Assembly: GCA_026874595.1 (NCBI GenBank)
Contig: CM049306.1
Coordinates: 11,367,019-11,431,018, forward strand
Origin: Sipunculus nudus
Taxonomy: Eukaryota; Annelida; Sipuncula; Golfingiida; Sipunculidae
Direction of reading: 5' to 3'
Length of the DNA: 64,000 bases
Translations under genes and position numbers: made by a program
Notes under the pieces: model-generated
Told to the model about the DNA's origin: nothing
What the model saw: the letters and a program-made list of their open reading frames with translations, nothing else
Database searches by the model: none
Part shown: positions 2,137 through 58,020 of the stretch, piece by piece
How positions within the stretch are numbered: the stretch's first letter is position 1
How the letters are laid out: each line of letters starts with the position of its first letter

Positions 2137-5100
2137 CTGGTTACACAAAATGTCAATGTTTATAACACTGGTAATAACAGACACACAGACAGAGATATAG
2201 ACCAGGCAGAGAGGTAGACCAGGTACAGAAAGTTGAACCAAATTTAAAAGCTTGTTATGTTCACATGATGTTTGAGGACACTGGCATTAAAAATGTCATA
2301 GATATGGAAAGAAAAGTAACAAATATTATGTGGTCTTTATTTAGTGAAGCTGTCACACCTAAAATGTCCAAGTTGACATAAACAGTTAAGAGCAAAAATA
2401 ACAAGAAAGAGGTGTGGGGGATATGAAGGAGGTAAAAACAAGGTGACAACATAATCCCAGCTAAAAGATTTACAGTTAACCACAATTAGGTCTAAGGGTT
2501 ATATCCTGCTCAATGAGAATGCAGATAATTTATAAAACTCCTGGTGGATGATGTGTGTGTGTGTGTGCATATCTCTGAACATCAGTCAGCTTTATGGTCA
2601 TTGAACAGCTAGTGTCATCTATTGGTCATCTATAACTAACTGAATAAGGATGTAAAACAGGTAGATCTTCTAGATCAAGGAAGTCAACATAAAACAAATG
2701 TATTTTATCACATGTGCAGCTGTGTGATATTGATATAAACATGGCTGACCATCTCCTGGAGTTGGCTACGATGACACCGTTATCCACAGAGAAGCTGTCT
2801 CGTGGAAGACCGGCAATGTTCCATGCCTGGATCTTGATAGGCTCACCAAGAGTCTTGGTCAGTGAGAAGTTCTTGGAACACGGGATCTTCTTGGACTGTA
2901 AAACAAAGACTCACCTCAAGAAGAAAATGCCTTTCAGATAATATGTTTATTTAAACATCAGATTAAAGCCTTATAAGTTGCTGTCAAAAACAGTGAGAAA
3001 TATGACTCTGAATATTTCACCACTTTATTACAACAGAAACTGTACTTAAAAATAAACCTACAGTTGGATCTTAAATAAAATTGATACTGAAGTAGTGAAC
3101 AGATATCTATATATGAACCCTAGCTCACTGTAAAAATGACTGGGTCTGGTAAACATTCAGTTAAGTCATAATTCTGAAAAGATAATCAACAGGAAATAAG
3201 AGCAGCGCAAAGGTGCATAATAAACCCATTGTATGTCTTGTGAATTCTGACCTCATTACATATGCATGGGATTTGATGAAAACTTAATTCATTTGAGAAT
3301 CAATTGGTAAGTATTTATCAAGAGTTATATGATAATCCATCAGACTTTTGGAAAGTCTTCATGGCGCCACCAAAATATGGTGAACCCGAACCATATTAAA
3401 TATACATGGATTTTGCACAGAATCAAACTTAGGAGAAATATTATTATGTCTAATATTTCTGTTGTTTTAAAAAAAATCCATCATACTCCTGGTAAGTTAT
3501 TGCAGTGACATCACAAAGTAGACTGGTGACCTCTGACCTCATAAGATATTCATAGATTTTGCCTATTATCAAACTTTGGCAAGATAATCTATTGATAAGT
3601 TGTTATGGTGATTTTTTGTGAAAAACCATAGAAACAATTATCAGCCAAATGGACTATGGGTATTACATAATACATCCTATCTGAAAGGGGCGTATAAAAA
3701 TAAACTTAATTATTATAGTTGAACACAATACTAGGTTAATGCATGCTGACTCCAATCCATGTACCTGGCATGTAGAGACCCAGCCTGAAGTACAGCTGTC
3801 TCTGAATGCTCCAGTGAATGGACCAAGGTAAGCAATCACACCGGCAGAGATAAGCACGTCACCCAGCAGGTTGTCATACACAGCCTGCAGATCAGCTGCT
3901 GCCTGTGTCCAACGATCCTTCTCACCTCCAAGTCCACCAATCAGCTTCTCAGCTCGTTTTAATTTTTTGCCGCACAGGTCCACCTAGAATAAATAAGGGT
4001 TTAACTCTTTGCTGTTTGACTCTGTGTGGCAATAGACTGTCCACTCTTTTTTTATGTAGTCCATCTACCATTCATGATACTCATAGTCCTCTTTTAGATT
4101 TATATGAAAGTATGTATCAAGCTCTTTTTAAATTATATATGCTTTCATATAAATTATGCACTTAGTGTAAAGTAGTGAAAAAGCTAATGAAAGTGTTTGT
4201 CATAAAAAAACCCATATACCTCATATGATATGACATATCCACTGAAAAAGTGCTTTTACATTTCTGAATAAGGCTGAATAATTAAGGCTATTATATTTAA
4301 AATGACAAGTTGCTCATTCTTTCAGTGTGATACATATAAGCTGTCTATGTGTTAAACTTTCATAAACTTTAAATGGGCAGCCCATGGTGTCACAGGTCTA
4401 CATGCTTTATACTTCATTTCATTACCTGGAATTCCAGGTTTTCCTTCTTCTCTGTCATTTCTTTAAACTGCTGCTTCAGGTTGGCCAGTCTCTCCTCAAC
4501 AGCCTGTAGTTCAGCTCGTTTAGCATTCAGCATGGCCATGGTCTTGGCCAACTCATCCTCTGCCACTGCTAAGCGCTCCTTCTTTGGAGCGACTACCTTG
4601 GCCACACGGTCGTAGAGCTCCATCGCAAGAATCCACTTACACAGACCTTCAGCAGCCGTTGAGGCGTTAGCAACCTTAGCTGGATCAAAATCTGGATTGC
4701 TGATGTATTCCTTACGGATTTTGGCCATAATATGAGGCTGTTGTAAACAAAAGAAAACAAGGAAATAGTAATTGTAAATAAATACATCATAGTCAAGGCA
4801 TTAAGTGCCAGATACAAATATACAGATTTCATTTTTCTAATGTAATCTTTATACACTTTGTGCTACTGTAGATAGGCTGTAAAGCTTCAGTGGAAATTAA
4901 GGAAAGCATATAAACATGTTGTACAACAAATGAGTTTACAAAGGTTTATGGATCAACTGCTCATATAGATACTTCAGTGAAACATTATGGCAAATTTACT
5001 GCGCATGGAGAGGAGGAGGTAGCTTTTTAAGTGTGCTAACAGTTCAAGGTTGGTAAGCTTAAGTGAGCAGAACATGTGTACTCATAATTTGAATAGCATC

Positions 5101-20100: not shown

Positions 20101-23100
20101 CGTACAGCTGACCCATGGTGATGGCTTTGGGGTTGATGGTTTTGTAGATGACTTTCTCGTAATCCTCATGTCCCTGCTCGTTCAGGAGCGTCATGGCTTC
20201 TGCCATCGTGTGCATCACACTGGTCTTACTTCCAAACGGCTCACCCACCAACATGAAGCTGTAAGAATGCATAACAAATGTATTTTAATGTTACTAAAAA
20301 AATGAGAAGTCCCAATGTTGTATGGTATAATGAAAGCTGCCCCTGATAAAATATGTGCATCAGTGGAGAGTTAAACATAAATCTGTGTACTATTTGAACA
20401 GGATATTAACTTACCCATAACAAAAGTTTCATTATAGATCATTTAATATGTGACTTTATTTTCTCTACAGTGCAGTCTGTTAAGCTCAAGAGAAATGGTC
20501 AGGTGGAAACAACAGGATGTGAGAACATGCTGCCCTCTGTTATTGATTTATTAAAAAAATCTAAAGAAAAGAAATATATAATTTTATGGAAAAGTGCCCC
20601 TTGGAAATTGGAATATAACAATGAGCCCTGAATCAGAACATACATGAACTGTAATCACCCACACAATCAACAGGTTTTGTATTAACCATGTTCAACTCAA
20701 TAACAAAACTCACCCGTGTCTGACAATCATCATCTCGTACATCTGTATGACCTTCTCGTTGAAGAAATCCACGTTCTGAAGATTCTTCTTCTTGCAGATC
20801 TCAGCCACCGCATCCAGGAATACGGTGTAGTCAGCTTTAGGCAGTGTGACCCCGGGGAAGAGATCAGAGATGATGCCGTTAAACAGCGGGATGTCATGGG
20901 CCAAAAACTTAGGCAGGTTGACATCAATGATGGAACGCAAAAGCTGAAAGTACACAGAAAACGTAAGTATGTTGTAATAAAAATTAATACATTGTTATAA
21001 ACAACTTAAAGCAGACCTGATACAACCCAAAGAATATGATATATGTATCAGATGTTCCAGAATTACCAGCAAGGTTTGTTTTTGTATAAACGCATGTGCT
21101 CAAAATTGGTCATTTTAAAACACACTTCAGCAAAACACTTACTATGTCAGATTTTATCAATCAATGATAATCCAATCATTTTGCATTTACACCATGACAC
21201 TGCACATTATTTAATATTTGATGTCTTTTTTATATATATATATATATTACATGACATTTTGAATTAATAGAACTTCTACCAATTTATAGATTCAGTTCAT
21301 AAAATACATGTAACAATGGGAAAAATGATAATATAAAACAAAGGCCCAGAGGCACAAATAGTCCCCCGTCATATGTTAAACTAGGAAAGTGTGGCATCAG
21401 TGATGAAGCGGGTTGCATGGACAGAAGGATGACAGACTCGGACCATTTTAGTAGTTCTCCCTCCTTACAGTGGTGGACTAATTACATACAAAGGGTGTTT
21501 CATATATCAGAGAAGGTGCACATATATCTTTAAAGAACTAGGAACTTACCAGGATGTTCTCATTCTCATCAGGGTACTTGAGCTTCAGATTTCCAGCGGC
21601 AGACAGCACAGCCTTCACAGCCCTCATACCATAATCATAATGAAACTGGGAGGACAGCTGCTCTGAGCACAGTCTGTAGGTAGTCACAATCTTAACCGCC
21701 AGGTTCCTGGCATCCATAAAACCAAACGAATACAGAGAGATTTCTGCAATCATGGCGTAGTCTGGAATCATCATGGCCACTGTCCGGAAGAGAACCTTCA
21801 GGTTGTCCGGGAGTTCAGACCTTCCTGCGTAGCCAGGATTCATGGTAATACACACGTAACAGTTGGGATTTAGACTCAGCTCTGTCCCTTCAAAGATGAA
21901 GGTGTCCACATTGCCCTGCACAGCTCTAATGATGCACAGAATCTGTAATAAAACAATAAAAGTTAAGTGATGAAGATTTGGTATGGAAGACAATGCTTAA
22001 ATTAACATTATTTGGCAAAAAAAAAACAAGATTGATTAAAATCAATGCAATTTGATATACAAAACAATTTCAACAAATCATTTAAAATGTTTCATGCAAA
22101 AAATATTAATAAAGTTTATTTCATTGTGGCATACAAAAGGTCTATTCTCCTCAGATGACCTCATGCAGGGTCTCTTGGTTTTGTTCAGACCATGACAGAA
22201 GTAATTTCAACAGATCAGATCAAAACAAACACTGTAATTAGAGGTTATCCATTGACAAAATGCTATTAAATAACAGTCTGACTAGGCCAACTGAGTTATA
22301 CTGTATGAGCTATATAATGGCAATGTAGCATGAACATGAAAATATATGGTTAAATATGTAACTAAAACAAGAGGATGAAGATGGTACCAACCTGCTGAGC
22401 GACCACAGACAACACCTCCAGCTCAATGCGGTTAAACTCATCAAAACATGCCCAGGCTCCTGCTGAGGCCAAGCCCTTGAAGAACTGTCAAAGACAACAA
22501 ATAAGGACCTGTACATTTTCATGGTTTTGTAAAAAACGTACTTCATAAATAAGCAATATTTAGTGATAAAATGCTGGTAATTGTTAATTACCTCACAAAA
22601 ATTCATGTTTTGTACAACAATCTCTTCAATGAAAATAACTGATGTAGTTCAAAATATTACAGGCTCATGAAAAATATTCACTTTAAATGTTCATTATTAA
22701 TACTTCCAATAATATTTTAGTTTTTGAAATGGTACCTATCCAACTGACCATAACTTTATCTCAACAGTTCTTGTGAAATACAGTGTACAGTGTAGGTAAA
22801 ACTGTTCCATTTTGTCACTTAGTATGTATGTACTTTTTATAAACAATATTCTGTATCCCACTCTTACACACCTTGCCCATAGCAATATAATCCAGGCCAT
22901 CAGAGCAGTTGAACACCACACACTGTACAGCCAGGGCCTTGGCCAGATCCTTTGTTGTTTCCGTCTTTCCGGTACCGGCAGGGCCTTCTGGGGCTCCATT
23001 GAGATGTAGATGAAAAGCTCCCATCAGGGTACGGTAACAACGATCAGTCAGTGGGGTGATCACAAGACTGTAACAGCCAATCAGCATCAAGTCAGTCACA

Positions 23101-26100
23101 CGTCACATACCTGATATCAACAGTATGTGTACATAATAACATGTCTGAGGAAGTCTTCTAGAGTTTTATTATAGTTAAAACATGACCTTTATTAAAGCTG
23201 CATGGTGAACCTAAATACTGCTTGTTGGTTCAACAAAGTATTTTCTGCCAGGAATAAAATGTTCATGTAAATATCTAATGAAAATCGAAAGACATTACAC
23301 CTAAAACTTATTATATGTATGCAGATGTCAAGAAACACTTTAAAATCACTTAAAATTTAAACACATGAATAGCCAGCAAAAAGAAAACCAAATTTAACCA
23401 GATTTCATACGAGCTTCTAGTTAATTTACCAGTCCATACATTTTATTAATTTGTAAGCTCTTTTTATTTCTAGGAATCTGCCAATTAAAAAGTTCAACAC
23501 AACACCAATTTTAAAGTTAATCTGAAAACTAATTAATAAAACATACCTATTTTTAAAAGACATGTATGCAAACTGTTAATGCTGATCGATGTTATATATT
23601 TATTAGAAAAAATTATGAAACAAAAAATCCTGCAAATACTCAACAATTTTATTAGCTTGGAACTGTATTTTTTTTAAATAATGAAAAAAAAAAATTTCCA
23701 CTTCCAATACACATACTGGTTGACAAAAAACTACAAACAAAATGGGTTATTTCTTAAATGAAAAGCTATTATCAAAATTAATATGGGAATGCAAGACATG
23801 TCTGCCATAAACAAAATGTGAATACACATTCACATTATCAAAAATAAGATATGGGTTCTATAGTCCTTCTGACAACCAGGTGTCTCACGAAATTTGAGGA
23901 AAATTTTTACAACTTAAATCTTTTGCAGTAGTTCAGTAGAACATTTAATATATGAGTAAATGTTTAATATGATAAATGAGAAAGTGTCATAAGAATATCC
24001 TGAATTTAACATTTAGAGCATTCTCATATACAACCTCACAGCCATGTAGTTTGGTGTCATCCATAAATGCATACCTATCATTTGTGGGTTAAGTTTTCAC
24101 ATGAAATTTAAGGACAATGTCAAATCAGTAACTGAAATGGGATTGTTTAAAACTGATCAACATACAATAAAAATAGAAAAACTGTGTACACAGAAAAAAA
24201 AAATATTTAAATGTTCTATTGAAACAAGTTGCAAAGCGAGTTTTGGGTTTCCTGCTAGTTAATCAGCAATATACTTCATTCTTTCATTAGAAGTACTTTT
24301 GGGCCATGAAGTGTGGATTACATAAATTGCCAAATTTCAGTTGACACCTAATAGGGGACTATAGAAAACGATATGAGTATATTAGAAATGTATTAATAAA
24401 CTTCAAAGGAAGTTTAAGTATGGGAAGAAAACATACATGTTAGTTAAACTCCTAACACCAACTACAATTGCCATTGTAACACCCGACACTCGTAGCGGGA
24501 CTTTGGTCTCACCGTCCCAGGTTCCCCAGGTATTCATTTTGGTACTGCATGCCAGCATTGGTTATCTTTATTTGACATACACGTGCTTGGTGGTCCCAAT
24601 AGTAACGCAGCTGTGCTAACCACATAAAGTCACCTTCATTGTCCAAACCTGAAATACCACGGGTCCACCACATACAGTATACACCACAAACAGTCAGCCA
24701 GAAGGAATAACATCGCAGAACTCTGCAGACTTGGCAGAGAGTTCCCAAATGACTACCACATTTAATGAGCGGTATGGCTGCGAATGCAACTGAATGAAGC
24801 ACCAAGTACCAACTCTAATAACAGGAATGTACAAGAAGTCATTTAGGCGACATTATACTTGCTTGGTGAGAGAAGAGGTTGGGTCTTACAAGTGTGGCAT
24901 TTTTTTTTCTCATTTTGGGGGGGGGGGGGGGGGGGGTTGTTATTCTGAAAGGTCATTTGTATAGCCTGGTATCAAATCATCTTTGGCATTATTAAGATAT
25001 TTACCAGATGGGCAAGCTGAAACATCAGGACAGGGGAGTGAACTTCAGAGGATTAAAATCACATTTATAGGAACATTCCAACCGTAGTGACCAGAAGTAA
25101 TATCTGAATGGGTCTGATAAGGTAGGGATGATGTTAATGGTTGATGGACAGCCACAACACTGTTTTTCAAACCAGCGAGCATATCTATTAAGGAGAAGTA
25201 TGATGCCACCTTAATGCTGTGAATTCTTGAAAATTGCTAACTATCCAGCAAGTTGTAGAAAACATTGCTGTTGACAAGTGGTGCAGAGCTATTCATGTTG
25301 ACATTGGTGCAACACTATGTCTACATACAAGGTGGCAAATTAAAACAACATAAAGAGGTCAGATGCCTGTGTGCCTGTAGGAGAAATACATGCAAGGATT
25401 GCTGAAATATACAAGGAGAATGTGAAATTGATAAGCCTGCTTCAAGCAGGAAGGCTGAAATATACAAGCAGGAGGTGAAATGGACAAGCATGCTCCACAT
25501 TTAACATGATAAAAAAACCAGCTGAAATGTGAAACAGATCCGTGAAAAACAGGTGCATAAGAATGGTCTTTATAGCAAGCTTACAAACACAGTGTTCATT
25601 ATGGGGGTCAGGGGATCTCATGGTGGCCAAAGATATTTTAATATGATAATTCTCTATGAATATTTAGATTTCAATGCTCTATCATACTGTAAATATATCA
25701 TTCATATTACTGATAAAAATGGCTAATTCCTGCACATTTTAAAATCTAAATATGAGAAATGGTATGATCAATTTAATTGATCTATATAGTTAGAAAAAGG
25801 GTTTGTCTAAATGAGGTATATACATATTCATAAAAATTAAAGCACACCTGAATATGCCAAAATGAACACTGGTTTATATGAAAATATTTAAAGAATCAGA
25901 CAGGTTTATGTTTGCAATCTGTCTGTAATCAAAACAGATTAGTGTTGATTCATACATATTTATTCAGATTTCAAGACATGAAGCAGATCTTGCTGTATTT
26001 TTCCATGTAGGAAACTCAGATCGTGATGAATTATGAGAGAAATAGCTGAAGCTTTGTACAGGATGTATGTACATTTGGGAAAGAATCCCCCGTCACCATA

Positions 26101-29100
26101 CACAGACCTAATAGCTAGTCATACAGCAGTTTACAGGTTCTGTATCATCTTACCGCCCTGAGTTTCCAAGATATTCATTGGCATAGTCTACGCATGCATT
26201 AGTGATGCGCACTCTGGCGTGATCATCCTCCCAGTAATATCTCAACTGTGCTAACCACTGAAAGTCATTCTCTGACGTAACACCTACAGGTAACATAAAA
26301 CGTACCACATGAACATAATACATGCTGATACAGTAACAAGCCATGCCTTACATAAAAATAAAGTGTACGACTAACAGTGTCATGATGTGCATACACAGAT
26401 GATGATACGGTATGGGAACACCTTGTGGCAGTCATCACGTGTAAACTGTGCTCACATTTATACAGGAATAAAGTGACTACAATGGTAACACATTATCCTT
26501 GGAGTACCAGTCTGGATTTTCTTGTGATATTTCAGAGATTATAAACACAAATCAAATAAAAATCCCTATGTTCTCTGACACAGCATCCACTGAAACATTA
26601 TGCAAATAATTATAACCTATATCAGGATACTCCAGCTGAATGTGACTGTACCAAAATTCAAGTACAATAAAAAAATCTGCAGCATAAATTTTCTCATATT
26701 CTCATCTGCATTAATTTGTGTGTGAACACAGTTTATGAAAATGGTGATGTTGCTTGCTTGTTGGGTATTTCCTACATGTGCACTCATGCGGATGAGTCAA
26801 AGAATACTGAAATAAACAAAATGTGATTTTAGTGATAAATCAACATTCAAATAATAAAAAAAAAATCATGCACTGCTGAAATAAATGAATTCAGAGACAA
26901 CATATAGTTCTACCAGTGTAATATTGCTGTGCATTTCAGTGAAATGAAAAACAGTTCAGAGTGACATGTCTTTGTATGAGGAGCAGGACAGATGGACATG
27001 ACTGCATTCCTCCAGTATAACAGGGAAAATAAAATGTTCCTGTACAAGCACAAGATTCCCTAAACAAACAGCTATGTACCTTTCTGCACACTTGAGTATT
27101 TCTACTCACTCAGGAGAAAACATGTGGTATGTTTCCCCTGTCAGTATCTGCATATAATGATGAGGTCTTTTCTGGTTTAAGACTGTGTATCTGCTCCTGA
27201 GACTGTACTGGTCACAATGGCCAAGCCAAGCCAAAAGAAGTATACGCTCATCGAGCAGCTACAGGTTGCTGCGGTCAAGACCTCATCCCTGTGCGCTCCT
27301 TAAGCATGTTCTCTGAGCCAACAGCCGCAGTGCCACACCAAGCCAAGCAGGGAGCCGTAGAGGGCGCCATCGTCTCTCCTGGGCCGTTGTCCTTGTTAGA
27401 AAGCTACAGCATCCACAGCCACAAAGCCAGAAGCAACCCGCATTCCCTCCACCGATCCCAGCAGTGGAGACCCAGCCATGCCATTCGAGAGCCGAACTCG
27501 ATCCTTGTGAACGACCTTACTTCAAGACCCAAAGCCCTTTTACTTGCAATTTCGGTCATTTGGACCGTTTAACCGGTTTCCCGGTTATGCAAGTTTTACA
27601 AGTTTTTTCGTCATCGGCAAATATGCCAATGGCCTAAACACTTAGTTTACATTGCAATTTCTATGGCTGGCTCTGGACATTTAAAGGGGCAAAGGCTGAG
27701 GTGACACAGTGTTTTAAGATTTGTTGGTGCAAAATTAGAAAATTCTTCCATAAATGTGACAGCTGGTCATTATTTATCCTGAAATTTGAAGTAAATCAAT
27801 ATGCAGTTACTTGTTTAAACATACTGGGTATAGCTTTATGACTGGCAAGAACTGTAAAGAGAAATAAAAAAATACTGCCTTGTCACTGCTCTAAATAATC
27901 TAGTTTTGGAGCTTTCTGTGAAGGTCTAAAATTGTAAAAATTAAATATCAAATATTTAATTGTAAAAATCAGATAGGAAATGCAAGTAGGACCACATAAC
28001 CAGCATATAAATACAACATCAAAGCATAAAACAGCATGGTTGTCAACCAGTAGAAGTGATCTGAAGCTGTGATCCGTGAGTTCTCTTGTGTATACAATAA
28101 AGCTGTGACCGTAAACCTGAATCTGAACATACCGAGACTGGTTACCCAAATATTCATGCATGTAATTGACGACTCCGTTGTTGATGGACACTTTGGTCTG
28201 ACCATTCACCCAGTAATATCGCAGTTGTGAGAGCCAGGTGAAGTCGTAGGAGGTTGCGATACCTAAAATGGTCACTTCATAGTTCTTGTACTACATTTAG
28301 AATGGTTTATACATGAAATGTCAAGAGTTTTACTTGAATTTTAAAAATAAGATATTTAAAACTTTATTATCAAAACTGAAAGCATGTGTGTAGACTCTGC
28401 TATGTTATTTTAAAACTGGAGAAATCATCCTTGGATAAGGAAAGATATCTTACTCATCCTACAAATACATATCACCGACAGTTCTCCTATTAAAACTTGG
28501 AAAAAAAACATTAAAAAAGGAATAAAAAAAAAACACTGATTACATACAATAATATGAAAAACCGACAAAGAACAGATATCAAAACCCTTTATTATTTGGT
28601 AATAAGTATTTTTTTGTGAGAAAAACTGCACATTGATAAAAATTAAATATATAAACCCCACAAACAATTGCAAAAAAAAAAATCTGGACCATAAAAAGCA
28701 AAGCACAACTGGATGCATAAAAATGTATGCATCAATTGTGACATCAAAGAAAAAAAACTCTGCCACCTAAATCCTGTCAGTCCTTGTAGCACATTCACAA
28801 TTGTGATGTTACAGTGCTGCAGCCATCTGGCTCAGGAAAAGTGAAGGTAAAAGGGAGTTTATGCTGTGTCTAAACATTACATTTGTCTTACTTATCATAG
28901 CAGTACAAATGAGAAAACAAAAAAATGACAAGAACTTCAGCTTGCAGTCCTACTGTCAAAACTCGTAAAAAATTAAACAACAGGTTTGGGACGATTCTAA
29001 AAGCAGCTGGTGCAGCAAAATAAAATTCAAAATTCTTAACATGTCAAAATATTATTAATAACAAATATAGGCATTAACATCTGGCACTGTAAACATTTTT

Positions 29101-32100
29101 TATAGGAATGCAACTGGTGTAACAGAAAGCCTTAGTGTTGCACGGTCTCTAGTTATCACCTGGTTTCTCAAGAGTAACTCCTGTAAAATGTTCATTCAAC
29201 AGAATTAGTTAATCATTCGATAAATGAATATATAATCAAAACTGTTTGCAATACATGAAGAAATATGTCATGTGGGTTTCTGTAAAAGAATCATTTTCAT
29301 GATTTTCCTGTAATAAAATTAAATCTGAGATACATTATCATTTCTGTAACAAAATCAAATTTGAGACAAACTAGGGACCCAGGGGTCTCGAGGCTCAGCT
29401 GTGTTTGTCTATAAGGATATTTTTAAAGAAATTTTTCAGAATGACAGTCCTTACCTTAATCAAGGACCTTGTGACCAAAACATCTGAGAACTTATTATCC
29501 TTGAACTTGCAGCTTTTAGGTTATTGTAACAATCTTTTTTAAAAAAGTGGGTTCAGTTACCTTGACCTCTGACCAGGTAATCTCAAAATCTAAAGATTTC
29601 TTTCATTTTGGGCAGGTAAGCCAAGTGTGAAAGATGGAAAGTTTGGGATGAAAAGATTAACAGTGCATCCACAAGCTATTTCAAGATGTGGTTTCTGCGA
29701 CCTTCACCTTTGACCTCTGGACCCAGATAATCAAAAGGTTTCTTATTTAAGTGGTGGGTCATTAATAAATCAAGTTAGGTTCCAATCTGTCTATCTAAAG
29801 CAGAATTATCATCCATAAACTAACTTGTGAATGAATGGGCCCTGTGACCTTGACTTTTGACCCTATGATCCCAAATCTAAAAGAATCATCCCATATTGGC
29901 AGGTGAGTATAATATCTTGAATATTGAAGGTTTGTAATGAAAAGTTTAACTTTTAATGCATACACTATCCTTTAAAAGAAATGGATTCAGTGACCTTGAC
30001 CTGTGACCTTTGGACCCCAAAATCGACGGATCCTTACTTTAGTGGCGAGGTATATACAAGTTTAGTTTGAAACTAATATGTCAAACCAAACTGGAGTTAT
30101 TATCTGGAAACTAATTTGTGAATAGATGGCCCCTGTGACCTTGACCTTTGACCTTGTGACCCCAAATTCATGTATGCTCTCCCCATACTGGCAAGTCCGC
30201 TAAATGTGCAAGATGAAAAATTTGGGATGAAAAGATTGGCTTAAAATGCGGGCATAATCTTTTTAAATCAGTGAGTCTTGTGACCTTGACCTTTGATCTC
30301 ATGACCGAAAAATAATACTGGGTCATTCTTTGGTGGTCAGCCATATGTAAGTCATGTTTGAAATATACCATTCCAACCTGCAGTTATCATCTGGAAACAA
30401 ATTTGTGTGGATGGACAGATGGACAGACAGACAGACAGACAATCAAACAGGTGATTACTATAGGGCATCCACTTGTGATCAATAAACACACAAGGTTTTG
30501 GGACACTAGATGGAATCACAGCTGAGAAACTGACATGATTGTTGTCATTTTATAGTAAAAAAAATAGAAAAATATTCGTAAAAACATGAAAAAAAGGAGG
30601 CACCACTTCTTTTTGGAAACTGACAAAACTAGTCATGGTCAAACGGCAAGATTCATGACAAACCATGATTGAATTATCAAGATACTGGAGGTTTTGTATC
30701 AATTTTTTTTTATAATTCCGGGGGGTATTTACAAGCCCCATAGCTCGGAGGATATAGGTCGCAGTAACCTAATTTCAGATTTCCAAGGAGATTTTTAATG
30801 GACCTCCCTGGATTTTAAGTTACAGGCATATTAGGTCAGGGGTAACGATTTGTGCCCTGCTAATGGACGGCCGGACGGCCATACAGACAACAGACAAAGT
30901 GTCATAACTATGTATCAGATGACTTACAGTCAGCGAGCTAAAAATGCAGTCAACCATGACATATCAAAACACCAATCTAAGGCAAATGACATACATCACT
31001 TGTATCAGCAATCTGAAGCAAAGGCTCCAGCTCATAGTGTCTGCAGAAATATATTATTAAAGTGGAACCAAATGGCACATCCATGCTGATAAATAAACAC
31101 CACATTAGAAAATAATTAAGTAAATTTATAATGGTAATAATGACATCAAGTTATCTGTAACAATGTGTTTAATTTTTATGATTCAAATTACTAAAAGAAA
31201 TTGATACTGTCAAAAATTCAATAATAATTCCTATAAAAATAAGTACTATAACCAAACCCTTTATTACACAGGTTTGAATAAAAGATATTATTACAATCCT
31301 TATAAAGAAAACTGAAATAAATCAAAGTTAAACATGCTTTGACAGAGCGCATTTGCTTTTTTTTATGTTTCTGAATAAATATGAAAGGACCATGACTGAA
31401 ATGATGTAGCTTACCTTTGTTCGCCATGTCTAACACAACATCTCTGGCATGTACATCAATAACCACCAAAGCTCCAAGTGTAATGCGCTGCTGCTTCGTC
31501 AGTTTGCCTCGCACTAGCTCCACAATGGCACCAAGCTGTTTCTGCAACTTTCCCCAATAGTCTTTCAGACCATTAGCACCCCCTTTGATGGCATCATGCA
31601 CCTCCGCTGTCCAGTAAATCTGCGACACGCAGAGGACCACCTGACCAGGCCAGTCCTTGACCCACTCCTCACGGGCCTCGATTGCGTATTGCTGCAACAG
31701 TTGGATCACATTTACAAGAAGAACTCACAACACACATATCCCTATAAAATAAACATCTGTTCTAGAAAAAGAGTTACTATATTTATTGGTACAAATGTCA
31801 AGTATATTTTCAGGTAAAACTTTTTGACTCTAAAAATGTATCTTCATAATATATACTTTAAAAATCCATTTGTTTATGGGGGCTGAGAGATCAGAACTGT
31901 TTCCTTTATAAGAAAAATAAACCTGTAAAACTTTACAAAAAATAGAAATATGAGAGGATATTAAAATGCCTGTAATGAAAAATATATTAAATATTAAAAA
32001 AAATATTAAAAAGATATGTAAGAAGGAAATAAAAAATAAAGATAAAATATTATCAGTAATGATGTTTCATCTTTAGCATACTAATGTTTGTTCAGCAGAA

Positions 32101-41100: not shown

Positions 41101-44100
41101 GACCCCAAGCATGAGCTAGTGCCTAAGTTTCTCCCTGAATTATTTTTGGACTATTTAATGTAAATACTGAAACAATCTTAAGTTTATACAATTTATTTTC
41201 ATATAAACATTGTCTAGCATGCGAACGTGTGTGAAGCCTTCGTTGTTAAATACGCATGAGCTAAATATTAGCTGGGCAGCGGTAAACATGGGCAATAAAA
41301 CGAAAATAACCCCATCAGTAATGCATCAGTGAGGTCTCACAGTTTGAAAATGAAAGTCATCTGAACATGGGAGACTTAAAATTTTGTTATCCATGGTATA
41401 GTAAAAAAGTGACCCATGGGTCATGAGGCTCAGCTGACTGGGAAGAGATTCGGCAAAGGAAATTTTATCATCTGAATGGTAGTATATACCCATTCAACTG
41501 AAGCATCAAACAGATTAACCAACAGGCCAAGATTGTGACTGTATTTATATATCTCAAAAATAGAGAAAAAATGCATAAACTTTAAAAAAAAATACAGGTT
41601 GTTCCACCAGTCAGCAGAAACTAATAATAACACTTAATGGTCAATATCCATGCAAAGAATCATGGTGATCTCTGCATTAGTTGTTCAGATACTTCAGCTT
41701 TTGTATCAAATTTTCCATTATTCTGAGGGATACTTCAGAGTCCTATAGCTTAAAGGATAAGGGTAACAGAGACCTAATTTAAGGTTTCCACAGACACTTT
41801 TCATGGGCCTCCTTGCATGACAAGAATGAAGATTCTAGGTCCAGTTGTTACAATTTGTGCCACGTTAACAGATGACAGCATCCTTAAAGGTCTCAAAATA
41901 GAGAAGAAAAATAGAAAAATTGAATAAAATATAGGCAGCACCACCAGTCTGCAGAAACTGATGAAACACTCCATAATCAATATCCATGCAAAGAATCATG
42001 GTGATCTCTGCATTGGTTGTTCAGATACTTCAGCTTTTGTATCAAATTTTCCATTATTCTGAGGGATACTTCAGAGTCTTATAGCTCAAAGGATAAGGGT
42101 AACAGAGACCTAATTTCAGGTTTCCATGGAGATTTTTCATGGGTCTCCCTGTGTGTCAAGAATGAAGATTCTAGGTCCTGTTGTTACAATTTGTGCCCTG
42201 TTAACAGATGTTCATATCTTTAAAGGTCTCAAAAATAGAGAAAAACATTCGTTAAAAAACCCGAACAAATACAGGGGGTGCCACCAGTCTGCAGAAACTG
42301 ATGAAACACTCCATGATCAATATCCATGCAAACAATTATGGTGATCTCTGCGTTAGTTGTTCAAGTACTTCAGCTTTTGTATCAAATTTTCCATTATTCT
42401 GAGCTGTACTTTGGAGTGCCATAGCTCAAAGGATATGGGTAACAGAGACCTAATTTCATGTTTCCATGAAGACTTTTCATGGGTCTCCCTGTGTGTCAAG
42501 AATGAAGATTCTAGGTCCAGTCGTTACGATTTGTGCCCTGTTAACAGATGTTTACATTTTTAAAGGTCTCAAAAACAGAGAAAAAAATGTAGAACTTTGA
42601 AAAAATACAGGTGGCGCCACCAGTCTGAAGGAACTGATGGAACACCTCTTGATCAATATGTATGACAAAAAAATGTTATTCAAGCAATTCACTGCTCAGT
42701 TACTGGATATATCGCTCTTGGCCTGATGAGCTTCAGCGGACTTCGTCAGTTAGATCCGACAGCCTGGCTATATCAAAGACCGTACCATGGCTGCACCTGA
42801 CACCACGGTACGATAAGCGCACAATAGGGTTAATGGACTTATGGTGTATTAATTGCAATTAGCACAGGACTGACACATGAGTGCTGGCAGAGCTTCACAG
42901 ATTTGGGACTCAATTGGGTGTAATGAGTTAATTAGTTAACTTTGTACCAAGCCAGCTAGTAATTACTCAGTGATATTTTGTGAATTCATAATCAAAGACC
43001 AAATAAACAAGAGACCCATGGGTCACATCGCTCAGCTGAATTTTTGAAAATATTAGTAACTGCAAAATATTTTTATTTCTTTTGGTTTTTCATGTATATT
43101 TTCATTTGAAAAGCTATGAGAAAATCACCCTGCTTAAATGAAACACTGTAAATTATAGAATAATGGACATGAGCTAAACCATTTAGTGATACACCAAGGG
43201 AAACAAGGGACCCATGGGTCACGGTGCTCAGCTTAAGTTTGAAATTTTCTCAAATGCAAAATATTCTATTTTAATGTTTTTCATTTATATAAGCATATGA
43301 GAAGCTAAGAGGAAAGAGGCCCTCCTACTTGATTATAGTTAAGTTTTAAATATATGATTGCAAACTAATACTCTGACAAGACTGTCATGAAGAGAAACAG
43401 TAAAAGTTTTGAGATACTGTGATGCATATGAAAAATTTACAGATGGACAGGCCAGTGGACAGTATAGACTAATACCTTTATTTCACTTTCAATGGAATAA
43501 TGCATTTAAGTTTATATATAAGCCTATTATTTAAGCATATTCACTTTTTTCATTAAAATAGCTTTTATCTGATTAATTTTTTTTTATTTACAAGTTTTAT
43601 AAATTTGTATTAAAAATCACTGAAAATATAAGTTAAAATATTAGAATTCTAAGTTGAAATCATTATATATCCAGAGTGTAGCTCATATTGGGTCATATTA
43701 TGCATACAGATATATTTTTATTATTTTTAAATCACAAAAGTCAGCTGAGCTAAAAAATGGAAAAAAAACAATTTTTAAAGAAATTGTGATATCAAACAAT
43801 AACTCTGACTACATTATATCTGTTTTCCAGTAAAAATGGTGCACATTGTCCTGCATTATACATGTGTTAGAAACATCCTGTAAGATAGACAAGTGATGTG
43901 ACATACCTCGTCATTCTGGTCATATATTGGGTTGATATTCTGCGGCCAAGTAAGGACCGTACTGTTAAGGTCAAGGTCTTCTTGGTCAAAGAAGAACACT
44001 TCAAGCAGATACTGCATTCGGTTCTGAGATTCCTACAAGAAGAATTCAAGTGAATGACTCTCCTGTGAGTATATCTCCAGCATGTAGTCATATAAACTGC

Positions 44101-48500: not shown

Positions 48501-51500
48501 TAAGGATTTTTGGATCACTGCATAATATCCTGGTATAGTTTTGCTGATTAGTGATAAATGAAGTGTTTACATTCTTGCTTTATTTAAGAAAACCTGACAA
48601 ATATTCTGATATGCATTTATGACACAAAAGTATCTCAAAAGAATTGATTTATCAAAGATCAAGATTAAGTCAATGATCTTTATTCTTTATTATGCATCTG
48701 GAAACAGGCGCAGTACATAAGGCTCCTTCCCATTGGGATTTTGACCCAACTTCATCTTTAGGGTGGTTCAACAATGAAAAGTCTACACTGGCATAAGCAC
48801 TGCTGTGAATACTTATTTGACACAACCTACCTGATTTGAAATGAGGGTGGTGACACAGCTGTAGAAGCTGTCGTATTTGTCTGATCTGATGGATGTAAAA
48901 TTATTCTTGTCTGCAAACACATTGATGACGGATGGGAGCCAGGAACTTGTCAGTTTCTCCTCTGACTTCTCACACTCCAGAATCACGGTGTTCCTCAGGT
49001 GCTCAAACTCCAGTGGTCCTTGTGCTCTGTGGAAACACAGCACGAATAATTTATTTGTTAACTTCCAGCTTTGTTTTACATCAGTGCTAATAAATACTAC
49101 ATAGTAACATAATGTACACACGCTTATTATATGCACGATAACACCAACAATATCCCTAAATCTGCCAGAAGGATAGTTGTATGTTGTGCCTTCTAGTAAA
49201 ATTATCAATGTATACCAGAAATCTTATGCTCTGTCACCCCCTGAAGAAAGGATAACCAAATAATGTTTTGAACTGTATCGTTTCTGTTTCTACTGTTTCT
49301 GTAACTCTACCTGATTCAGCATAGATCTGAAGGTAAAAAGCAAGGAGCATAGAAATAGGGATTTAATAAAACTATAGATGGTCATCTATGTTCTTCCATT
49401 AGACATTTCCTCATATTTTTCACTTATTCATCCATTAAATGACAGGGTCATGGACTGAAGTCGGCACTATCTACTGTATTAAGATAGAGAGAGCAATATA
49501 ACAAAAACAATGATTAAGTATGATCATATAATTTCAAGGCTTGAAGATTACAGGTTTAACATGCATAGGATAAGGAATAAAGAAGAAGTAAAAATTAATC
49601 AACAGGACATAAAACAAACCTCTGAGGGGTTTTACTCAAGTTTCACCATTTTCCCCTGGAGGCAGAGGCAGGAAACAAACCAGAATCTCTCAAGTCCAAT
49701 GACAAACACAACCATTTCAAGTTCTATCCTTCTTAATCTCATAATATCTATAACATAATTTTCATCAAAGGACCATTTAACTCCCCCCCCCCAGGGCACA
49801 GTACATATTGTCTGTAACCTACACCTTACACACAGCTGTGTGGCTTTGTAACACTAAGAGTTTGAATGATTATGGTCCTCCTACCTGTATCCTGAGCAGT
49901 CTACAAGCAGGATGGAGCCCAGGGTTTTCTGACACATGTTCAGTATAGTCTGCATGGATGGATGTAGAATGTGTAGGTTATTTCTGATTTCCTCTTTGTT
50001 CTGGATGAAGGTCTCATGCCATGGACTGGAGTAATCCAGACCCTCCGGCTCCTCTAGAGGTGGTTCTGTGTCATCTTCTTCTAGACCCTTCACATTTGGT
50101 TTGACTAGGGCTTGTTGTACTGTAATGTATCAGGACAGCTAATTACATGATAAACATCTGACTGTCCTGACCAATTTGTATAATCTTAAATTAACATTAT
50201 AATGAAGGGATCAAAAAGTGTTCGAAAAAAAAAATGAAATAGATGATGTATGAAAGAAAGTGTCCTTTAATGAAAGAATAAATTATTATAAGGTATGAAG
50301 ATATCAGCATTTTAATAATGTGTACACCATAAGATAAAGGCAGAATGGTCTGACCTGAAAGATGATTTACATATGATAAAGGTCAATGCAAAGGAGCAGC
50401 AGAGTCTGACAGCATATGTATGAACAGCCCAGCCATACAGGATCATGTATTGTATTTAGACTGTGGTTATTCCTAAATTATGTGCTAAGTTGAGCACTGC
50501 CATGGGGTGCAAAATTATACCTACCATGGTAACAGATATCATACTAAGCAACCACTGGCCTTACATGTCTTTTAGAAGATATGGGAAAATGATACTTGGT
50601 GAAAATATGGTGGCTAAGATTTTTTCATAATAACTGCAGATTCTGAAAAGAAATAAATGGATACAACAGAAAAGACACTAATGATGACAACAAAAACTAG
50701 AATACGGGTAGTTGACAAGCAACTATGTGTATCCGCCGAAATCAGAGTGGGATGGGTGAAGTGAGGCATGGATTGAGTAACAAGGGGAAATAGAGTGGGT
50801 GTGTTGCATATTAGCATGGATGTCTGCAGCAGAAATGTGTATGTAGGTTGTGCCACTTACCACAAAATCCAGAAAGCTATCAAAGTTGTATACAAATGCA
50901 AAAAGTCAAACCACTGCTGAGATATGAGTGATTTTATCCCATGGCAGACAAACAGATGGACCCTGTGCAAAAATGGCTGCAGGTGGCACCACCAGTTTTG
51001 CGTATGATAAAGAGCTATTGAGATCTATACACATGCAAAATTTTGGCCCAATCAGCCAAATGGTTCCCGAGATATGAGCTTGGATGTCTGCAGCATAAAT
51101 GTGAATGTAAGTGGCGCCACCTGTCATAAAATCAAGAAAGCTATCCAAGATGTATAAACCTGCAAAATTATAGGCAAATAAGTCACACCACTACTGAGGT
51201 ATGAGTGATTTTAGCCCACAGCAGACAAACAGACTGACGCTGTGCAAAAATGTTTGCAGGTGGCACCACCAGTTTTGCTTATGATAAAGAGCTATGAGAG
51301 ATCTATACACATGCAAAATTTTGGCCCAATCCGTCAAACGGTTCCTGAGATATGAGCTTGGATGTCTGCAGCGTAAACATGAATGTAGGTTGCGCCACCT
51401 GTCATAAAATCAAGAAAGCTGTCCAGGATGTATACACATGCAAAATTTCAGGTGGATATGTCCAACCAATGCAGAGATATGAGTGATTTTATCCCTAGGC

Positions 51501-54500
51501 AGATGAACAGATGGACACTGTGCAAAAATGGTTGCAGGTGGCGCCACCATTTTTTAAGTATATTATAAAGCTATCCAAGGGCTACATTTGTGCAAAATTT
51601 TTTTCTGGATCGGTCAAACGGTTCCCGAGATATGTGGGTTAATGTGTCATAACAGACGCACAGATGGACGCAGAGTGCAGAGGAAAGGTCAGAGGTCAAA
51701 ACAAATTCTGGGTGCAGCAGTTCACATGTGACCCGAACATAATCCGGGGTTTCGTTAAATTCCGTCCAGCGGTTACGGAGGAGTTCTCCGGACACCTACT
51801 CAGTGGCGGCGTCCAGCTGAAAACACAGTATCCGCAAAACTCTGTTTTGGCGGATACAGTTAACTTTACAAACTTTTCTTGGTCCTATTTTTCAAATTTT
51901 TGTTGGAGGTAACTGCCTCCTTTTTTTAATGCTAGCTTAACTCTAAGTAAATGTAGGTCTGCATGGCAAAATTCTATTTCAGTTTCTCGCTACATTATAT
52001 ATATATTTACAGGGCAGTATCACAGGCTTCCCCTCCTTTTATATCCTTGTGTTAATCAGGCCTGGTGACTATTGCACCTTTGAGTCCTGGGTGTGTATTC
52101 ATCCCTATTGCTGGGTCATACCACCAAGGAACCCCCAAAAGGTGCACTTGTTTGTGAGTGAAACAATGGCCTTTGGGTACGGCCTTCCCATTAAGCCTAC
52201 AGAGGGCTAACCCTAAGTGGGGGCCAACAGTGAAAAATCTAACCGCCTTTGCTGAAATTTGACACATGATCGACTTTTAGACCTCTGCTCTACCCCTGAG
52301 CCACAGAAGCTGGTCTGGTCCAAATATTTATTAAATTTCTCTTCTAGGACTGGACTGAAAAAGAATGGAGCAGCAATTATTAACATTTCCTAGGCTTTCT
52401 CCAGTTTCAGTTACACAAAGAAATGTTTACTGTAGTGTCAACTAAAGAACATACCCATGGATTTCTTCATGCTCTGGTTGAAGTCCACTTGAATCTCCTC
52501 AAACAGTTCCTTAATGACATCTTGAACACCGGGCTGTTCTCTCAGCTCAGCTGGTATCAGGCCAAGAATGTTATCAAACCATTCCTGTTGCATCTGTGTG
52601 ACTGGTGCAGTCTCTACACACTGCTTCATAAACTGGTAGTTCAGCTGTTCATGACAAGTGTTAATGTTACTAAAGTATGTTCTCGAAAATGGCATTCTAT
52701 CAGGTGTATATACTATCATTCATGAGCATTCATGAGTTATATGAAGATCAAGACAAATAAGAAAGTTAGAATCCAAAATCTGATTAAATAAGAAATATGT
52801 TTCTTTAACTTGCACTTTTCATGTTACCACTAATTTGAACCCATATGAGATCAATTGTGTGGACTGTGGATATCTTTATATATATTATGTGTATAATATT
52901 TTGTATTATTACAATTGAAACCATAAAATAACTTCTTTTAAGCATGCACAAGGACACTTACATACACACACATGTAAAATATTATGCATGTAACTTCTCA
53001 TGAGCATTCAGGTGTATTTACATGTATCCTAGCCACAAACAGCAATGGTGCCCTTATCAGCACAATCAAACTGCCTTGGCACCATGCCTTAGGCTCAGGC
53101 CATAAACTGAACAACACAAACATAATTCATACCAATTGAAATGAAGCCACACATGGCCCAGTAACATGCATATAAAATAGCTTTGTGCTCAAATGACTGG
53201 TTCTATCTTGAATGATTTTTCATAGTGTGCCATTTCTGCACATATTTAGAAGAAATTCAGTGAAATTTTAAAACCTTTGCATAATCTAATTTACCACCAC
53301 ATGGTATACTTAATTAACTGTATTTTATTTTCACTAATGGTTGCGGCAATGATCCATCTTTACTTTGTTTAATGTTTTGAATGTATCTTTTGCATGGCAC
53401 CAGGTTTACCTAGTATTTTCAAATCTATCCACAGACCTAATGTCATTAAATAAACAGTTGAAGTTACAGGAGAAATACTGTAATATGTTGTGAAAGAAAC
53501 ATGAATATTATCTTGCAAAGAACACTATGACATCTGCTAAGTCTGCTTATAGGCTTATTAAAAGAATTATTCTGATAATATGTTTTTTTGAGGAATTATT
53601 AAATCTTGCTTCAAGGACAATATAATTTTTTACATAAAAATGAGTGAGTAATCAAATAAAAATGTGAAAAGTTGCTGCATTAATGATGAAAGCTTTTCCT
53701 ACAGTACCAACAGACAACAGTTCAAGAATATATATGTACAGTGATGAAGAAATGATATCTAAAGGAACCTATATTATGTATCCTTACTGAAACATTGACC
53801 ACAAAGAGGTTATAAATATCTCATACACAGCCTGGTAAGAAAATCTATCTTCTACAATTACAATGATGTTAAGTTCATAATAAACCTATTCTTTGTTTCC
53901 TATAAGCAGTGAACATGTATCTTGATTCTTGAGACATAACATCTAAAAACTGATAAAATCAAATGCCTAAAAAAAAAAACAAGTTTGTTCAAAATAAAAA
54001 TCTACTGAAAAGGATATGTACACATATGATAAAGAAAACACATAAAAAGTGCAGAACTGACATTTTCTATACAATCAGCAATGGAGAATCAATTGTATGC
54101 AGGAACAGACTCTTTAGTCATTTAATGATATTTGGTCTCTTCATGTACAGTTATTTTTCTCACATTCAAAAAGTGGAGAATTTATATCAATCAAAGACAA
54201 GGAAGATAACATTTTTACAAGACAAGGATCTCCCACAAGAAATCTGTCAACTCTGATTATTATTGGTTATGTATCAGTTATAACATCAAGAAAGAAACTG
54301 AGGTACTTTAATCTTTAAATTTTACATTCTCGGTTGATGAAACTGAAAGCATAATTATAAATATAAATATTCATGTAACTGACAATAATTTTAAATATAA
54401 CTGCTGAATTTTGATTTTTAAATTTACAATTCTATTGAGGGGACTGATTTGTTAGGTGAAGTGACATGTATTGAGTGACAGAACTGACACCAGGTGGTGG

Positions 54501-57029: not shown

Positions 57030-58020
57030 GATGTGTCGGAACGACACGAATACCCTCGCCTGGGGCAAATTAGAAACATTTGTAAAATTATGAAAAAATT
57101 TTTAAGTTCAGGTGGTGTTGTATGGTCAAAAGTAGGTCAAGAAGGGCAAAATGCAAACTCGATCTGTAACGGGTCATTATCAAGCAACACACCAAAAATC
57201 ATGCCAGTATATGCAGGCATTGTGAAAAAAGTCCATACATGTGCATTTTCCATAAAAATTTCTGTCTTTCATATAATTTTCTATGTTTAGGAGCTGTAAA
57301 ACAATCAAAAGTAGGTCAACCGAGACGAAACGCGAACTAGATCTGTAACTGTCATTATCTGCCCACACATGAAAAATCAGGGTGGTATCTGCAGGCATTG
57401 AGGAAAAAAAGTCAGTACATATGCATTTGTTATGAAAATTTCTATTTTTCATGAAACTTTCTATGTTCAGGAGCAGTGACATGGTCAAAAGTAGGTCAAC
57501 TGGGAAAAAACAACAACTCGATCTGTAACTGGTCATTTTCTGCCTACACACCAAAAATCAGGCCCATATCTGCAGGCACTGCGAAAAAAAGTCCATACAT
57601 GTGCACTTTTTTATGAAATTTTCTATGTTAGAGCATCGTCAAATGGTCAAAAGTAGGTCAACTGGGACAAAACGTGAACTCGCTCTGTAACTGGTCATTA
57701 TCTGCCCACACACCAAAATTCAGGCCCATATCAGCAGGTATTGCGAAGAAAAGTCTGTACAAGTGTATTTGTCATGAAAATTCTATTTTTCATGAAATAT
57801 TCTAAGTTAAGGAGCCGTAAAACAGTCAAAAGTAGGTCAACCGGGACGAAATGCAAACTCGATCTGTAACTGGTCTATATCTGCCCACACACCAAAAAAT
57901 CAGGCCAATATCTGCAGGCATTGCGAAAAAAGTCTGTACAACTGTTTGATTTTGGAAGGACGGAAGGACGGACATGGGTAAAACTATATGCCCCGGCCAC
58001 TTTGTGGCGGGGGCATAAAA
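57030..58020. mobile_element. Pearl/Helentron-like element with about 5 tandem units of ~178 bp
   Basis: The word caaaagtaggtcaa recurs at about 57,127, 57,307, 57,486, 57,652 and 57,828. Units share gatctgtaactggtcatt, tctgcccacacaccaaaa, atctgcaggcattgcgaaaa and tttctatttttcatgaaa. Left end: hairpin GTGTCG-GAA-CGACAC (57,033-57,047). Right end: ATGCCCCGGCCAC facing GTGGCGGGGGCAT (57,988-58,016), then an A-run. A tandem core between palindromic ends is the plan of bivalve Pearl/Helentron non-autonomous elements. Confidence 0.65.

Follow-up and report, generated by a model that had tools for sequence, protein, structure and literature searches.

The window analysed here is a 64,000-nt stretch of the Sipunculus nudus genome (GenBank assembly GCA_026874595.1, contig CM049306.1, called C1 below; C1:11367019-11431018), and its minus strand encodes part of the axonemal dynein heavy chain DNAH12. 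At the junction between the linker and the first AAA module (AAA1), the position of exon 22 is taken by three tandem exon copies, termed a, b and c, which lie between exons 21 and 23. Exon numbers follow an earlier, sequence-only reading of the window, and searches beyond the window covered the whole of this single assembly (1.43 Gb, 153 contigs). The features of the cluster are listed in order of transcription, with positions counted within the window and intron lengths taken from the exon boundaries.

31415..31691, minus strand: exon 21 (upstream), C-terminal part of the linker; 277 nt, AG acceptor, GTAAGC donor, phase 1 at its end
28263..31414, minus strand: intron between exon 21 and copy a; 3152 nt
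28133..28262, minus strand: exon copy a; 130 nt, top PDB match DNAH12 (35.9 bits)
26284..28132, minus strand: intron between copies a and b; 1849 nt
26154..26283, minus strand: exon copy b; 130 nt, top PDB match DNAH12 (54.6 bits), of the three copies the nearest to the PDB DNAH12 chains
24649..26153, minus strand: intron between copies b and c; 1505 nt
24513..24648, minus strand: exon copy c; 136 nt, a net two codons more than a and b, top PDB match DNAH12 (38.4 bits)
23068..24512, minus strand: intron between copy c and exon 23; 1445 nt
22872..23067, minus strand: exon 23 (downstream), LVITPLTDR and the P-loop GPAGTGKT of AAA1; completes a split Arg codon
22392..22484, minus strand: exon 24, Walker B motif of AAA1 (ACFDEFNR); 93 nt, one copy found in DNAH12, compared with four in DNAH1

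The sequence-only reading had named the gene DNAH12, and this assignment is supported by searches of PDB sequences in which a, b and c, each used alone, ranked a DNAH12 chain first, a result that fits copying inside the DNAH12 gene. With b and exon 23 together, DNAH12 chains again lead (9fqr_PW, 97.5 bits; 8j07_g1, 94.9), followed by DNAH7 (89.3) and DNAH1 (80.5). Matches to the linker and AAA modules are colinear with a dynein heavy chain on one strand, from C1:11405203 down to 11339020, in a check that ran from the linker to the C-terminal exons. The placement at the linker/AAA1 junction also fits the alignment to DNAH12 residues 1205-1248, ahead of the P-loop exon. By alignment, exon 22 encodes the DFxWLxQLRYYW with which the linker region ends and the YxxEYLGN with which AAA1 begins; LVITPLTDR and the P-loop follow directly in exon 23. 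In the dynein motor the linker is the lever and AAA1 the main ATPase; DNAH12 itself is a single-headed inner-arm axonemal dynein. The exon border R|LVITP in DNAH12 seems different from that in several paralogues of the same genome, whose open frame continues through LVITPLTDR, and this border may have shifted before the exon was copied.

Three homologous exons of matched phase

Re-reading of the sequence reproduced exactly the coordinates of the copies, their lengths of 130, 130 and 136 nt, all 1 mod 3, and for each copy the GT start, CG end, AG acceptor and GT donor (GTATGT, GTAAGA and GTGAGA). Each of a, b and c is open in only one of three frames, and the only length difference among them, 136 against 130 nt, is a multiple of three. 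The copies match one another at the protein level far past chance (E 8e-15 for b-c, 4e-14 for a-b and 1e-8 for a-c), with amino-acid identities of 20/42 (a-b), 20/41 (a-c) and 28/41 (b-c). Nineteen positions are identical across all three, and these include the DF, WL, QLRYYW and EYLGN of the shared DFxWLxQLRYYW and EYLGN motifs. The further statement that about half of the other residues differ holds approximately when a is set against b or c and is too strong for b against c, given the 28 of 41 identical residues of the latter pair. The three are thus adjacent homologous exons of similar length and the same phase, each open and each with its own canonical splice sites, which are the marks of a mutually exclusive cluster.

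Only single-copy messages stay open

Exons 21, 23 and 24 were spliced in silico with every combination of a, b and c. All three single-copy messages (21-a-23-24, 21-b-23-24 and 21-c-23-24) are open, while the five others (none, ab, bc, ac and abc) stop early: at codon index 94 when no copy is present (junction near codon 92) and at codon index 139-141 for ab, bc, ac and abc, where the faulty junction lies near codon 136. In each of the five messages, about 6 codons at most separate this junction from the premature stop. That exactly one copy restores the frame therefore holds as actual translation, beyond the length arithmetic from which it had been argued, and joint or zero inclusion is predicted in silico to give a non-functional message.

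We conclude, with a probability of about 0.85, that a, b and c are three mutually exclusive tandem exons of DNAH12, exactly one of which would enter each functional mRNA between exons 21 and 23. The interpretation as mutually exclusive splicing, first proposed in the sequence-only reading, is supported by the homology and matched phase of the copies, by the outcome of the frame test and by long-term purifying selection. Under it, cell- or stage-specific splicing factors would choose among a, b and c, and messages with none, two or three copies would carry an early stop and then undergo nonsense-mediated decay. The early stop in 5 of 5 non-single combinations would also suit extra copies that act as a switch-off device, in which messages with two copies or none go to nonsense decay and set the amount of DNAH12 made, not its isoform. 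An exon used in that way needs no conserved protein, whereas all three copies retain DNAH12-like residues and one open frame, and we regard such a role as highly improbable.

Old copies, apparently retained as coding sequence

Silent-site divergence (pS) between the copies is saturated, at 0.75 for a-b, 0.96 for a-c and 0.94 for b-c, whereas replacement-site divergence (pN) is unsaturated, at 0.32, 0.35 and 0.26, respectively. Fisher tests on rounded counts gave p values of 8e-5 (a-b), 2e-8 (a-c) and 1e-10 (b-c). Saturated pS together with low pN gives the copies the look of old coding exons. The introns that flank them, compared over 700 nt a side on the same strand, show no clear homology between copies, with short weak matches only (best E 0.019), so that the duplication is neither recent nor a product of the assembly. 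An artefact of assembly or collapsed haplotypes, for which nothing speaks beyond the dependence on one assembly, is a negligible prospect: the three copies share a contig while their silent divergence is saturated, and genome searches with b and with a as queries each return one exact place and also list c once, as a target only.

Neutral decay was simulated from b under a simple substitution model with no indels, each setting being run 20,000 times. Simulated copies that were still open, with AG and GT intact and 20/42 residues kept, made up 5% at 0.3 substitutions per site and 0.2% at 0.5, and no simulated copy passed the same criteria at 0.75 or 1.0. These results bear on a reading in which b is the only copy in use and a and c survive as relics with the appearance of coding sequence. 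It draws some support from the position of b as the copy nearest to known DNAH12 (54.6 bits, with c at 38.4 and a at 35.9; 28 residues identical to one DNAH12 chain, compared with 22 and 21 for the other two copies) and from the acceptor of a, which has the lowest pyrimidine content among the measured DNAH12 sites. In the 22 bases ahead of the acceptor trinucleotide, that content is 0.41 for a, 0.59 for b and 0.50 for c, and 0.45-0.73 for 14 other DNAH12 acceptors, two more being left out because their sites were not located; a thus falls just under the range of the gene and b and c within it, a measure that is uninformative on the use of the copies. Set against a relic origin are the saturated silent and low replacement change, the in-frame length difference, the splice sites and the retention of the 19 shared residues, and the simulation indicates that neutral relics would rarely resemble a and c. 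We consider relics very improbable; to judge by their sequence, the copies look old and apparently have been kept as coding exons.

Duplicated exons in other dynein genes of the genome

Matches to the DHC_N2 (90) and AAA_6 (96) profiles, grouped by eye, fall into 18 loci for dynein heavy chains. With the AAA_6 profile, one locus gave four matches to the same profile stretch, and its best PDB match (E 1e-58) identifies it as DNAH1. The duplicated exons found in this and other dynein genes are as follows.

C6:39308507-39308612, 39310363-39310468, 39312191-39312296 and 39316259-39316364: four Walker-B exon copies of DNAH1 (w1-w4), AAA1; 106 nt each, 1 mod 3, phase-matched
C1:11358456-11358596 and 11357013-11357153, minus strand: second tandem pair of DNAH12 (x1/x2), between AAA5 and AAA6, left of the window; 141 nt each
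C16:48839453-48839545 and 48841534-48841626: tandem pair of DNAH7 (y1/y2); 93 nt each, a multiple of three
C9:46792950-46796700, local positions 1314-1451 and 3374-3550: two versions of a last coding exon, the second of which best matches DNAH2

The DNAH1 copies follow the same frame rule as those of DNAH12. Among their 16 combinations, the four single-copy messages are open and the other 12 are stopped, including the message with all four copies together, though it is in phase by length. Pairwise pS ranges from 0.78 to 1.08 and pN from 0.09 to 0.25, and the DE of Walker B is retained in all four copies. The DNAH1 cluster is an independent parallel that supports the reading of the DNAH12 cluster as mutually exclusive.

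Comparison of the DNAH12 locus (C1:11338501-11412018) with that of DNAH1 (C6:39306401-39419000, from AAA1 on) gave 43 colinear pairs, among them a few that represent interspersed repeats instead of dynein exons. Repeats aside, exon 22 and the 141-nt pair are the only clearly duplicated DNAH12 exons in this comparison. The members of the 141-nt pair share 34 of 46 residues (pS 0.76, pN 0.20) and, as multiples of three, keep the frame with none, one or both copies. In a control scan, DNAH12 and DNAH1 exon queries were run against the DNAH7 and DNAH3-like loci at E 1e-4. In DNAH7, a single place was matched by 40 of the 41 DNAH12 queries that hit the locus and by 38 of the 39 DNAH1 queries, and the exception in both sets was the same 93-nt pair (16/31 residues identical, pS 0.98, pN 0.28), which a self-comparison restricted to E 1e-6 had missed. 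At the same threshold, no duplicated exon was found in the DNAH3-like gene, where all 38 DNAH12 and all 37 DNAH1 queries fell at one place; the label reflects the second rank of DNAH3 in the PDB list, the top match bearing the name of another molecule. Tandem internal exon clusters were thus found in three of the four genes scanned with exon queries, namely DNAH12, DNAH1 and DNAH7, and not in the DNAH3-like gene. The locus with two last-exon versions is probably DNAH2, by a match that comes from the second version only.

Genome-wide, the queries b, a, the Walker-B exon of DNAH1 and the other duplicated DNAH12 exon gave 14, 13, 18 and 19 matches, respectively, some of them weak, with at most one at any other locus. 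The remaining 14 loci were judged by eye with eight Pfam models (PF08393, PF12774, PF12775, PF12780, PF12777, PF12781, PF03028 and PF18199). Across all genes, the survey covered exons downstream of the tail, and it reached the linker exons of DNAH12 through DHC_N2 only. Both the 141-nt and the 93-nt pair were missed by these eight models, so further duplicated dynein exons may exist in the genome. Overlapping Pfam matches at C11:54485416/54486185 and C6:85890533/85889030 were candidates for tandem exons, and inspection of the sequence revealed no duplicated dynein exon at either; smaller overlaps between Pfam matches were taken, by eye, as alignment run-on. An overlap in AAA5 of DNAH1 proved to be a short tandem repeat of the 3′ end of an exon, not a full exon: at C6:39359850-39360450, the 3′ end of the AAA5 exon and its donor are repeated about three more times downstream, which creates several possible donors. 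The window itself carries four tandem arrays, at 643-1425, 41552-42659, 50898-51554 and 57126-57940, with units of 78, 340, 278 and about 180 bp, and the 340-bp array resembles repeats at the DNAH1 locus on another contig.

The presence of duplicated exons in several dynein genes also bears on what the exon choice would do. Mutually exclusive exons could yield equivalent isoforms, with the cluster kept by drift or dosage and not for tuning of the motor, an outcome that accords with the conserved core residues common to all copies. Against it stand the differences at about a third to a half of the aligned residues, in a part of the motor that is a mechanical junction, and the repeated occurrence of duplicated exons, in DNAH1, DNAH7, DNAH12 and DNAH2; we hold equivalence of the isoforms to be unlikely, though not negligibly so.

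How one copy could be chosen

Two known routes to exclusion do not apply to the DNAH12 cluster. Incompatibility of U2 and U12 splice sites is ruled out by the AG acceptors and by the three donors given above, none of which is of the U12 type. Steric exclusion, for which a human survey uses a limit of about 50 bp (PMC5740500), is ruled out by the introns of 1849 and 1505 nt between the copies. The reading frame is the only visible check on exclusivity, and the primary exclusion mechanism is not seen in the sequence. Of the 629 clusters in the same survey, 377 (60%) have lengths that are not multiples of three (PMC5740500).

Several points weigh against exclusive use of the three copies, or against parts of that interpretation. 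Pairing of the docking/selector kind was not detected, the best inter-intron complementarity score, 29, lying within the 26-34 of the best scores in 20 dinucleotide shuffles, for Watson-Crick matches only and in one species. The frame is no general exclusivity device in these genes, since the lengths of the 141-nt DNAH12 pair and the 93-nt DNAH7 pair are multiples of three. In a tree built from 16 sequences, each about 43 residues long, 10 of the 13 inner branches stayed open and the order of duplication was not recovered, so that phylogeny offers no proof of a single origin inside DNAH12. The pS/pN measure contrasts the copies with one another and is thus compatible with a recent loss of function in one of them. 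Finally, we infer the use of each exon from the sequence of one genome, and tuning of the motor by exon choice is a proposal made by analogy.

Related exon clusters

Mutually exclusive splicing of this kind has a precedent in a dynein gene. A mutually exclusive exon of the Schistosoma mansoni cytoplasmic dynein heavy chain 1 (SmDHC1) has been reported as a software test case (PMC3228551). It resembles the DNAH12 cluster in that a dynein heavy chain gene carries homologous exons of matched length, with codons split at both ends, which were identified from sequence; it differs in that SmDHC1 is cytoplasmic, whereas DNAH12 is axonemal. In the same source, 90 of the 16,180 exons that are annotated on the Drosophila X chromosome as constitutive or as differentially included have the look of mutually exclusive pairs, a base rate that speaks for exclusivity of a, b and c.

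Arthropod muscle myosin heavy chain has mutually exclusive exon clusters that include relay and converter exons (PMC2257972, which cites functional work on the converter exons). There, too, the clusters swap mechanical parts of a motor domain and several occur in one gene; the difference is that myosin is an actin motor without homology to dynein. Since exon 22 spans the point where the linker ends and AAA1 begins, an exon swap in DNAH12 is proposed, by analogy with the converter-domain exons of insect muscle myosin and more weakly than the steps above, to alter the power stroke or the docking of the linker while the position of the dynein would stay unchanged. The DNAH12 cluster has three copies, compared with the dozens of insect Dscam. 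The two would share the choice of exactly one exon per message from a tandem homologous set, and they differ in the docking/selector RNA pairing of Dscam (PMC6071210), for which DNAH12 shows no inter-intron pairing above shuffles.

A dynein-directed search of the open-licence literature, of partial coverage, returned no report of mutually exclusive exons in an axonemal dynein, in agreement with the earlier statement that no description in DNAH12 was known. In the human survey of mutually exclusive exons (PMC5740500), DNAH is absent from the main text and dynein occurs only in the reference list. A pearl oyster paper (PMC11270918) uses the relevant terms for expression and splicing-program categories and not for a dynein exon cluster, and a paper on insect exons (PMC3303723) contains none of the terms sought in it. 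The exon kind is already known, from cytoplasmic dynein and insect myosin; the place of exon 22 in the motor and the recurrence of duplicated exons in DNAH1, DNAH7 and DNAH12 add interest.

Implications for axonemal dyneins

Cilia of different tissues beat differently despite one common set of dynein genes. We tentatively suggest, at somewhat less than even odds, that in this animal exon choice, in addition to any gene duplication, diversifies the single-headed inner-arm axonemal dyneins. Three hinge exons and two AAA5-AAA6 exons would provide six motors from DNAH12, with four from DNAH1 and two from DNAH7, so that different ciliated cells, such as those of gill, sperm and larva, could use one set of genes to assemble axonemes that differ in power stroke. 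Gene models that contain one arbitrarily picked exon would then misread dynein evolution in such genomes. If exon choice does swap the hinge between lever and engine in DNAH12 and the catalytic Walker-B segment in DNAH1, one gene would yield natural, selected variants of the dynein stroke, a natural experiment for dynein comparable to that of the insect myosin exons for muscle, and tuning of the beat by cell type would become testable through junction counts.

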